Part shown: piece by piece, positions 43,098 through 46,174 of the stretch
How the letters are laid out: each line of letters starts with the position of its first letter
How positions within the stretch are numbered: the stretch's first letter is position 1
Source: an uncultured Bacteroidota bacterium
GTDB taxonomy: Bacteria; Bacteroidota; Bacteroidia; Chitinophagales; LD1
NCBI GenBank assembly: GCA_903861145.1
Contig: CAIOTH010000083.1
Span: 1-64,000, forward strand
Reading direction: 5' to 3'
DNA: 64,000 bases
Notes under the pieces: generated by a model
The model's database searches: none
What the model was told of the DNA's origin: nothing
Seen by the model: the letters and a program-made list of their open reading frames with translations, nothing else
Made by a program: the position numbers and the translations under genes

Positions 43098-43304
43098 ATG
43101 AAAATGAAGAAAGCGGTATTTTACGTTGTAGTGCTTATTTCGGCAAGCATCATTTTAGGTTCATGCAATAAATGCTATACCTGCGCCCAATATGGTAATG
43201 CTACTGAAATACTTTGTGAGAAAACGAGTACCAAAGCACAGATTGACGCTGCGGATACTTTTTGTATTCATAATGGCGGGGTTTGGACTCCCTACCAACA
43301 CTAG
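43098..43304 (+). CDS. Small cysteine-rich lipoprotein, C-[NK]-K-C-Y-T-C family
   Basis: 68 residues from ATG 43098. Signal peptide ends at lipobox ILGSC with C23 lipidated. The mature N-terminus is CNKCYTCAQYG, followed by two more cysteines (ILCEK, FCIHN). It shares the C-x-K-C-Y-T-C opening with the lipoprotein at 49865-50188. Role unknown; metal binding or disulfide bonding is possible. Its last bases overlap the stop of the convergent crcB by 4 bp. Confidence 0.7.
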   Translation: MKMKKAVFYVVVLISASIILGSCNKCYTCAQYGNATEILCEKTSTKAQIDAADTFCIHNGGVWTPYQH

Positions 43305-43681
43305 ATACCAATGCGGGTAAGTGTTATTCCCATAAAAACTGCGCCTAATCCTAATGCAAAACTTGAAATGCTGTACAAAGCAAATGTGCTGTAATTTGAT
43401 TGCTGTAAGAGTTGAACATTCTCTAAAGCAAAAGCCGAGAACGTGGTAAAGCCGCCACAAAAGCCGGTAGCCAAAAGCAGGCGCCACTCCGGTGTAAGCC
43501 AAATAAAGCGCAATGATAACCCATATACTACGCCAATTATTAAGCAACCTACAATGTTCACGGCAAAAGTTCCGAAAGGAAAGGGACTAGGAAAAAACCG
43601 AGTCATATATACCATGGAAAGATAACGTGCCACGCTACCAAGTAAGCCACCAATTGCTATTAAAAGTATATTATATTTCAT
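43301..43681 (-). CDS. crcB: Fluoride ion channel (Fluc/CrcB)
   Basis: 126 residues, four membrane helices, exporting F- as a dual-topology dimer. R19 (GGLLGSVARY), N42 in GTFAVNIVGC and the GFCGGFTTFSAFALE block (73-87, with the two Phe of the pore) are intact. Start ATG 43681; the GTG 4 codons upstream was not chosen. No fluoride-riboswitch core is visible upstream. Confidence 0.95.
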   Translation of the reverse strand: MKYNILLIAIGGLLGSVARYLSMVYMTRFFPSPFPFGTFAVNIVGCLIIGVVYGLSLRFIWLTPEWRLLLATGFCGGFTTFSAFALENVQLLQQSNYSTFALYSISSFALGLGAVFMGITLTRIGI

Positions 43682-43860
43682 CCTACCAAACACTTAACGC
43701 GGTTACACCGCAAGGTTAATAATTATTTGTGCTTGTAGGCGCCATTAGCCCCGCCGGAAGCGGAACGGTTAAGTAGGAAGACACCATTTCCTTACAAATC
43801 AAATATACGATTGTTTTTGATTTTGGATACATGGACGCGATACATCGCCCCTCAGCAAAC

Positions 43861-46122
43861 CTAGTAGGTTCTTTCCAAAACAAACCAACTGAAAGCGCGG
43901 AGGTTAAGTTTAACCATACTATCGCGTACCAGTGGGTCAAGCTTTTTCCAGGCACGCTCAAGTATTGTTTTAGCCTCTTTCTCGCAGTTTTCGATGGTGT
44001 TATGCTTATCTAATAAGGCAACTGCCTCAGTTAATAACTCAATATTCTCTGTTTTAGAGCTCACAATCTGCCATAAACGTGCGCGGTCGGGTTTACTTAA
44101 CACAGCCATAGCTTTGGCAACAGGATAAGTAATTTTACCTGCGGTAATATCTTCGGCTTTGGTCTTCAGGTTATCCTTAAACCCTTTGAGATTAAGCGTA
44201 TCGTCAATTATTTGGAAAGAAATACCCAAGGCTTCGAAGTAGTTACCCAAGCCTTCAATCTGTTCCGTTGTTCCATCGCCTAATAGACCACCAATTTTAG
44301 CAAGGTAACTAGCCGGTGCGGCCGATTTTAGGCGGTGTGTTGCAATTACCCTTTTAGCCAATAACCGCGCAGCGGAGTCTTTCTCAAGGGCTGAAGGTAT
44401 CATATAGTCGAGGCCATAAATATCCATTGCCTGTCCGCTATGCGATGCGCGCATGGCTTCGAAATACCAGTTATATATTTGTATCTTCTTTTCAACGCCG
44501 TCTTTAGCACGGTAAATACAAATTTGCCCCAAAAAGTAACTGGCAGAACCTGCGTTAATGGCAACCGGTGTGCCGTAAATTAAATGGCAGGCGGGCCCAC
44601 CACGACGTATTTGAGAACCATCTTCAACATCATCTACTATCAATGAGCCAACGTGCATTAGCTCGGGTAAAGCCAACCAGTCAATCGCTTTTTGTGAGTC
44701 CCCTCCTACTATATCGCAACATGCCACTGTTGCATACGATCTCCATGTTTTACCTCCCCGGTCAGTTATTTCGCGAATTGGTTTAATGAGGGTAGCCGCG
44801 TATGCTTTTTTATCAAGCCCATCAGTAAAGTGCTTATTGCCTTTTACCGAAACAAGCTCTTCAAATTTTTCCTGATCGAATGAGGTAGGAATGATTTTTC
44901 TGACTGATTTAAGCGTTTGTTTAGAAACCGCTTTCAGGAAGTCCTTCATATTAACGCTATCGAAGAACCCGTGACGCTCGATGTAGCCAACACCGGTTAC
45001 ATTTTTGCCCTTAATTTTTCCCTTAATATTCATTCTTCCTTCCCAGAAGGCCGGCTTAGAAATGGCAGTTGCAAATTCCTGGTTTGGGAAAGCTGCTTTT
45101 GCCTCAACATTAAGTTTAAAATCAGGTGCTTCTAATTTCCACGAAACAGGGTAATCATTAAAGGTTCGTGTACTGGTCCATTGCTCATCAAAAGGCTCTA
45201 AATGAAAATGGTTTGAGTGATGGCGTTTGCCCTTTTCATCAATTAAAATTACAAACGAGCCACAGTCTTCGCCCGTTTTTAAATCAATTAAATCGTAGGC
45301 GGTTAGCTCACAACCATTATCAAATTGAATAGCAATCCAGTTCCACGATACATCCTTTTTACCTTCATCGTCTTTTTTATCGGGATGGCAGCCAAACTCA
45401 TGGTCGTACCAACCACTGGCCTTGGTGATATTCAGTTTTTCGTTTTTTACCTTAAGGGTACCGGTTACTTTACAACGCGGTATGAAGTAATAAAACATAT
45501 CCTCGGCCGATACACCTCTTACCACCCCATTATCGCCATGACGAATAGGAGCTCTTTGCGCCTTAAATACCAGGTCGGCACCAATGTTCAACTCTTTGTG
45601 AAACAGGTGCAATTTGTAAGTGCCATCGGGTTGCTTTTTGAAGGTGTTTCCATCAAAATCAAGCGAAAGAGTTTTAAGGGAAACAGTTGCATCCTTTTTC
45701 AATAATTCGTCGGGATAAGGCACTACGCCTTTCCTTAGCATTTCGAGGGCAGCTCTTTTCAAATAGGGATCCTTTACAATCTCACCGCGCTCAAGCCTTT
45801 CAATACCAAGTTTGGGCGCCCGCTGGTCAATCAGAGAAACCGTATTGTATTTTTCATTTTCAACGTCGGAAAGCGCCCAAAGAACAGAGTGCGCATAAAT
45901 CGGTTTCTTGGTTTTTTTATCGTGGCCTACTATTCTTCTGAAAAAAGAAGCGAATAATGAAAAATTACGTTTACCTACCGTTTGAATGTGGGTATTCATA
46001 TACCACCATTCGGTAGTGCTTGAGGCATGCGGCAAATCGTGTATGGCTAAATCAATGGGACCATCTTTTGGCCAATCTGCAGGAAAAAAAATACCGGGAA
46101 CAGGGGTAGAAGTTTTTTTCAT
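43861..46122 (-). CDS. Fusion of CrtC/AttH lipocalin-fold domain with polyprenyl (GGPP-type) synthase
   Basis: 753 residues from ATG 46122. Residues ~1-390 are a CrtC/AttH-like double lipocalin: TEWWYMN (37-43), ASGWYDHEFG (235-244), VSWNWIAIQFDNG, PAFWEG (357-362) and VTGVGYIERHGFF. This family includes carotenoid 1,2-hydratase and fungal decalin-forming enzymes. Residues ~425-753 are an all-helical isoprenyl diphosphate synthase with first motif DDVED (497-501) in IVDDVEDGSQIRRG and second motif DDTLN (640-644). The DDxLN form, ACHLIYGTPVAINAG and EDITAGKITYPV recall eukaryotic-type GGPP synthases. Small residues at -5/-4 from the first motif (G492, S493) favour C20 or longer products. Soluble, no signal peptide. 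The N-terminal domain probably acts on a prenyl product. Confidence 0.88.
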   Translation of the reverse strand: MKKTSTPVPGIFFPADWPKDGPIDLAIHDLPHASSTTEWWYMNTHIQTVGKRNFSLFASFFRRIVGHDKKTKKPIYAHSVLWALSDVENEKYNTVSLIDQRAPKLGIERLERGEIVKDPYLKRAALEMLRKGVVPYPDELLKKDATVSLKTLSLDFDGNTFKKQPDGTYKLHLFHKELNIGADLVFKAQRAPIRHGDNGVVRGVSAEDMFYYFIPRCKVTGTLKVKNEKLNITKASGWYDHEFGCHPDKKDDEGKKDVSWNWIAIQFDNGCELTAYDLIDLKTGEDCGSFVILIDEKGKRHHSNHFHLEPFDEQWTSTRTFNDYPVSWKLEAPDFKLNVEAKAAFPNQEFATAISKPAFWEGRMNIKGKIKGKNVTGVGYIERHGFFDSVNMKDFLKAVSKQTLKSVRKIIPTSFDQEKFEELVSVKGNKHFTDGLDKKAYAATLIKPIREITDRGGKTWRSYATVACCDIVGGDSQKAIDWLALPELMHVGSLIVDDVEDGSQIRRGGPACHLIYGTPVAINAGSASYFLGQICIYRAKDGVEKKIQIYNWYFEAMRASHSGQAMDIYGLDYMIPSALEKDSAARLLAKRVIATHRLKSAAPASYLAKIGGLLGDGTTEQIEGLGNYFEALGISFQIIDDTLNLKGFKDNLKTKAEDITAGKITYPVAKAMAVLSKPDRARLWQIVSSKTENIELLTEAVALLDKHNTIENCEKEAKTILERAWKKLDPLVRDSMVKLNLRAFSWFVLERTY

Positions 46123-46174
46123 TACGGTCAAGATCAGTATTCGGGTTAATTCATCTGGTTAAAAAAACTGCCGC

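Follow-up and report, generated by a model that had tools for sequence, protein, structure and literature searches.

A gene on the minus strand of the window (the whole 64,000-nucleotide stretch of DNA that was analysed) encodes a lipocalin-type domain of the CrtC/AttH family joined to an isoprenyl diphosphate synthase. The locus raises the question of whether the joined protein is real and, if so, which compound its two halves might produce together. Each half is of a known kind; new are the combination, its wide distribution and the invariant chemistry at two sites. The two-domain protein recurs across Bacteroidota, Myxococcota, cyanobacteria and other groups and is probably uncharacterised so far. 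No prior description of a lipocalin-synthase fusion was found in the literature searched, with most subscription journals and preprints outside its scope. In public records the matches bear no annotation beyond 'polyprenyl synthetase family protein', and the pathway may therefore escape tools that look for terpene cyclases.

The fusion gene and its distribution

The frame of the fusion is uninterrupted on the minus strand and extends over 43861-46122 from an ATG (753 aa) or over 43861-46131 from the first TTG (756 codons). The ATG, taken as the start in the original prediction, lies three codons inside the TTG frame; residues are numbered here from the TTG, which adds 3 to the earlier numbering. 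All features below are on the same strand. The N-terminal lipocalin domain of the CrtC family (residues 40-247, 45391-46014; PF07143, E 4e-18) is followed by a second lipocalin barrel, Lipocalin_9 (residues 259-387, 44971-45357; PF17186, E 7e-22). The inter-domain stretch (residues 393-440, 44812-44955), with model helices at 395-413 and 420-427, forms the start of the helical domain and is the least conserved part of the protein. The trans-isoprenyl diphosphate synthase domain covers residues 448-706 in Pfam (44014-44790; PF00348 polyprenyl_synt, E 6e-44), with the fold continuing to residue 756. All three Pfam matches exceed the curated cut-offs. AlphaFold predicted the folds of both halves, with a pLDDT of 89.4 and a pTM of 0.86 for the whole protein and of 85.2 and 0.85 for the N-terminal domain alone. 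The open frame and the Pfam matches bear out the initial claim that one frame holds a full lipocalin domain and a full isoprenyl synthase; the motif positions given with it, DDVED at 497-501 and DDTLN at 640-644 in the earlier numbering, are right. In the 4.7 Mb source genome, which encodes two further isoprenyl diphosphate synthases, the fusion is the sole protein with PF07143.

A homologue scan over contigs from one genome per species (GTDB) yielded 66 related loci, 54 of which hold an uninterrupted full-length fusion, with identities of 40-88%. Within Bacteroidota these belong to Chitinophagales, Saprospiraceae, Flavobacterium and Telluribacter; beyond it they were found in myxobacterial/deltaproteobacterial MAGs, the cyanobacterium Iningainema, one Verrucomicrobia MAG and one Thermoplasmata MAG. 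Among the genomes sampled, the fusion is carried by 16 of 18 from the same genus, 24 of 30 from the same family and 33 of 198 from the same order, so that within the family it behaves as a conserved gene and not as a sporadic one. Two separate genes joined by an assembly error, which had been named beforehand as grounds for abandoning the prediction, are ruled out by the full-length loci and by the recurrence in genus and family. Broken frames were seen at two loci, L029 and L066. At the latter (L066:8001-10216, Flavobacterium sp. Root935) a frameshift near residue 411, within the inter-domain stretch, represents either a sequencing error or true fission.

Across 45 aligned fusions the mean pairwise identity is 50% in the lipocalin half, 40% in the inter-domain stretch and 58% in the synthase half. 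The divergence of the two halves is correlated (r = 0.89), and the catalytic residues of both are invariant. Distant fusions in two other Bacteroidota genomes (L072 and L073) are just 26-27% identical. Plasmid records also contain the fusion, namely those of Tolypothrix sp. PCC 7601 and 7712 and of Streptomyces canus, with a degenerate case in Nitrosomonas stercoris. Synthases of the fusion clade that have no lipocalin half occur in Streptomyces sp. NBC_01431 and on pSCL4 of S. clavuligerus; the N-terminal domain is thus dispensable for chain synthesis. A tree of the N-terminal domain sets the AttH-like proteins apart as a separate clade (96/93), with the fusions branching off outside, in the same order as in the synthase tree: L072 and L073 first, S. 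canus next, then the rest. The rows of kievitone hydratase and CrtC are very long in this tree, and their placement was not used. The branching in both half-trees, with some weak forks and an assumed root, is compatible with one old fusion event, under which the standalone Streptomyces synthases would be losses of the lipocalin half.

The synthase half and its type III affinity

The fold and Pfam family of the C-terminal half are those of trans-isoprenyl diphosphate synthases, and its best structural match is the GGPP synthase 1wy0 (Z 37.9). Both Asp-rich metal-binding motifs are present, together with the Lys, Arg and His residues that bind IPP. In the first motif, DDVED (residues 500-504, 44620-44634), D500, D501 and D504 are invariant in the 45 fusions, as are D643, D644 and N647 in the second, DDTLN (residues 643-647, 44191-44205), which is of the form DDxxN and not DDxxD. 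Of the remaining metal- and IPP-binding residues, K461, R464, H493, R509/R510, Q567, K602, Q640 and K656 are likewise invariant, and K666 is conserved at 90% or more. Judged by these residues, the half would make a prenyl diphosphate from IPP. Small residues stand ahead of DDVED, Ser at -4 and Gly at -5; the human GGPPS has Ser and Ala. They would argue against a product of FPP length and are consistent with C20 or longer, the length originally proposed and the one that we infer from them.

The second motif had suggested from the outset that the enzyme is closer to eukaryotic GGPP synthases than to common bacterial ones. In a motif census the fusions have SLI[VI]DD[VI][EQ]D and DDxLN, whereas other rows have HDD and DDxxD; outside the fusions DDxxN was found only in the human and yeast GGPPS rows, which, like the fusions, have no His ahead of the first DD, and in the Streptomyces rows the second motif still closes with Asp. 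The fusion thus displays the IDDxED / DDxxN pattern of type III (eukaryotic) GGPP synthases. A maximum likelihood tree of 50 rows, just two of them eukaryotic type III enzymes (human and yeast), splits the fusions and these two from all other rows at 98/98, on long branches. The approximately unbiased (AU) test rejected a grouping of the fusions with archaeal GGPPS (p = 0.0004), which disposes of an archaeal affinity; a grouping with plant/bacterial-type GGPPS was not rejected (p = 0.083). An ordinary Bacteroidota synthase was also considered. The two other synthases of the source genome and about 17 further Bacteroidota synthases sit elsewhere in the tree, and in this tree the placement among standard bacterial enzymes that would have contradicted the original prediction was not observed. 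The eukaryotic flavour is therefore real in the motifs, and a shared ancestry is likely from the tree but short of proven, the plant/bacterial alternative having survived the AU test. The human and yeast enzymes resemble the fusions in their IDD[IV][EQ]D and DDxLN-type motifs and differ in having no lipocalin domain, in being eukaryotic and in being joined to them by deep, long branches. If it holds, the grouping of a bacterial clade with eukaryotic enzymes would also be relevant to how type III GGPP synthases arose.

The lipocalin half and its proposed reaction

The N-terminal half has the double-barrel fold of the kievitone hydratase/AttH-type lipocalins. Compared with solved structures, it is closest to AttH (Z 36.3), followed by kievitone hydratase (Z 32.5 over 301 residues), the pericyclases CghA, Fsa2 and Phm7 (Z 23.6-25.2) and 25-phosphosteroid lyase (Z 22.3-22.7), with the next match at 8.4. 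Sequence profiles gave E 4e-39 for AttH and 8e-16 for kievitone hydratase. The motifs W-x-D-[HR]-[EQ]-[FW] and W-x-W of these two proteins are both present, WYDHEFG...WNW of the fusion aligning with WYDRQWG...WTW of kievitone hydratase. Asp243, in GWYDHEFG (45403-45405), is the equivalent of the catalytic acid Asp268 of carotenoid 1,2-hydratase (CrtC) and matches CrtC YFD and kievitone hydratase WYD without gaps. The Trp residues of W263-N-W265 (45337-45345) correspond to Trp283 and Trp285 of CrtC. All 45 fusions have Asp243, His244, W241, W263 and W265, and Y214, Y215 and F216 are further invariant aromatic residues of the domain.

In CrtC, Asp268 donates a proton to the terminal prenyl unit, and Trp110, Trp283 and Trp285 stabilise the cation (PMC12402844). 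Alanine mutants of His239, Trp241, Tyr266 and Asp268 are inactive (PMC4717167). The CrtC residues were mapped onto the fusion by way of Roseobacter litoralis CrtC (plasmid pRLO149_94) and an alignment. Asp268, Trp283 and Trp285 are retained, the position of Tyr266 is taken by Trp241, and no His or Trp that could correspond to His239 or Trp241 of CrtC occurs within residues 205-224. The register of His239 is uncertain (opposite Y214 without gaps, opposite D211 in the alignment), and no register yields a His. CrtC proper, which also has no synthase domain, was rejected as an identity for the half because these essential residues are missing. Kievitone hydratase, with WYD and WTW near the Asp and no His, follows this pattern too, so the domain is better called kievitone-hydratase/AttH-like than CrtC. 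What stands of the CrtC-like domain first described is thus a complete double lipocalin of the CrtC/AttH type, and not a CrtC hydratase.

Kievitone hydratase of Nectria haematococca (PDB 7a0q/7a0t) shares the double-barrel fold, the acid Asp in WYD, and the WxW and QE motifs; it adds water to the prenyl group of its substrate and needs no cofactor to do so (PMC6013536), a likeness to the chemistry proposed below. It differs in being a secreted fungal single-domain enzyme with a plant isoflavonoid substrate, has no synthase domain and is 19% identical. AttH of Nitrosomonas europaea (PDB 2ich) has the same motif layout, no assigned function and no synthase domain. For the two-domain architecture the closest parallel is offered by fungal bifunctional terpene synthases, such as astellifadiene synthase, variediene synthase and a copalyl diphosphate synthase joined to a prenyltransferase. 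They surfaced as matches of the synthase half and follow the same principle, a single chain holding both a prenyl synthase and a domain that modifies its product. In the fungal enzymes the partner is a helical terpene cyclase ahead of the synthase, not a lipocalin.

A single-chain enzyme with two steps is proposed, at a probability of about 45%. From IPP and an allylic starter the C-terminal domain would build an all-trans prenyl diphosphate, probably of C20 or slightly greater length, which may be transferred directly to the N-terminal double lipocalin and be bound there by its far (omega) end. Asp243 would donate a proton to the trisubstituted double bond at that end, an aromatic wall of W241, W263 and W265 would hold the resulting tertiary cation, and water would most likely capture it, giving a tertiary alcohol, i.e. 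an omega-hydroxylated prenyl compound. In relatives, enzymes that are clustered with the protein or fused to it could then plausibly attach a sugar or a sulfate to the omega-hydroxyl or oxidise it. Free farnesol (17%) and geranylgeraniol (4%) also serve as substrates of CrtC (PMC12402844). Against the proposal stand the three residues required in CrtC and absent here, the lack of a conserved partner gene in most genomes, that of the window included, and the standalone Streptomyces synthases. Proteins throughout the AttH family, most of them of unassigned function, share the Asp and the two Trp, which are thus not proof of hydration. If the proposal holds, a single enzyme suffices in many bacteria for a modified isoprenoid, and its modifying domain is a beta-barrel and not a terpene cyclase fold. 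The protein would then supply hydrated or cyclised terpenoids without further enzymes, and with it one could ask whether protonation of prenyl ends is a general function of the CrtC/AttH fold.

Of the three roles first offered for the N-terminal domain, hydration, cyclisation and carriage, hydration is favoured by analogy. In a proton-initiated terpene cyclase the lipocalin would protonate the terminal double bond and exclude water, and inner double bonds would capture the cation to give a cyclic diphosphate. The mechanism proposed for CrtC was itself modelled on squalene-hopene cyclase (PMC4717167); the fusion has no His239 and is rich in invariant aromatic residues (Y214, Y215, F216, W241, W263, W265), and no cyclase was recognised in the L037 cluster described below, which does contain P450s, an FkbM methyltransferase and a glycosyltransferase. 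Kievitone hydratase, the closest relative of known function, also has no such His and yet hydrates, and the gene of the window has no cluster, which leaves cyclisation unlikely. Its fuller form, a class II-like cyclase with a fold that is not known to carry out that chemistry, joined to a type III-like GGPP synthase of its own and making a cyclic terpenoid diphosphate from C5 units, must be held rather doubtful. Lipid carriage is common in lipocalin-type barrels, and the domain might merely bind the chain, set its length or pass it on, the product being a plain prenyl diphosphate. The lower conservation of the domain (50% against 58% mean pairwise identity) and the standalone Streptomyces synthases of the clade would suit such a role, although five invariant residues (Asp243, His244, W241, W263, W265) in 45 of 45 fusions would be unusual for a mere carrier; this explanation is not considered likely either.

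Other reactions of the same fold appear improbable. An elimination as in 25-phosphosteroid lyase, a double-bond shift or a pericyclic reaction is suggested by the lyase and the pericyclases CghA, Fsa2 and Phm7, whose fold is the same (Z about 22-25). Kievitone hydratase is clearly the nearer relative, and these enzymes rank lower as functional models; no diene/tetramate pathway genes, and no polyene pathway genes for a Diels-Alder substrate, were recognised near the fusions. It is very improbable that the lipocalin hydrates a carotenoid while the fused synthase merely supplies GGPP to the pathway. The family name CrtC, two squalene/phytoene-synthase-family genes in the source genome and a divergent fusion beside a desaturase-like gene speak for it, but the essential His, Trp and Tyr of CrtC are missing and the two synthase-family genes, on contigs C38 and C122, are not close to the fusion, which is on C83. 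The divergent fusion (L109:8021-12360, minus strand) stands beside an FAD amine-oxidase-family gene that resembles a carotenoid desaturase.

Neighbouring genes

The fusion gene is solitary in the window and in nearly all close relatives. No conserved operon was found in the lineage of the window, and a search of the source genome, run without a positive control, found no relative of the L037 glycosyltransferase. A minority of relatives show clustering with tailoring genes. A GT28-type glycosyltransferase adjoins the fusion at five loci (L036, L037, L055, L058 and L064), which belong to Iningainema, two Telluribacter, one Verrucomicrobia MAG and one Bacteroidetes MAG; an HMG-CoA synthase is found at L058. 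At L037 (6773-16160), L055 and L064 the glycosyltransferase, the fusion, an LMF1-family membrane protein and two P450s are co-directional, constituting an uncharacterised terpenoid-type gene cluster. At L037 it includes an FkbM methyltransferase, and no separate terpene cyclase was recognised there. A plasmid of Tolypothrix sp. PCC 7601 (L100:9655-14184) encodes a single protein of 1509 aa that combines sulfotransferase, glycosyltransferase, CrtC, Lipocalin_9 and polyprenyl_synt domains. The glycosyltransferase, P450 and sulfotransferase partners would fit a lipid-like isoprenoid product that bears a free hydroxyl. The fusions with tailoring genes are just about 37-51% identical to that of the window, so that carrying their associations over to it would be an extrapolation.

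A family of proteins of about 205 aa that have no Pfam match directly follows the fusion at five myxobacterial/deltaproteobacterial loci (L032, L033, L043, L044 and L061). In the window itself, a fluoride riboswitch (43729-43800, minus strand; RF01734, E 1e-8) lies directly upstream of crcB (43301-43693, minus strand), named from its sequence as a CrcB/Fluc-like fluoride channel gene; the two are found immediately downstream of the fusion on the same strand and form an independent unit.
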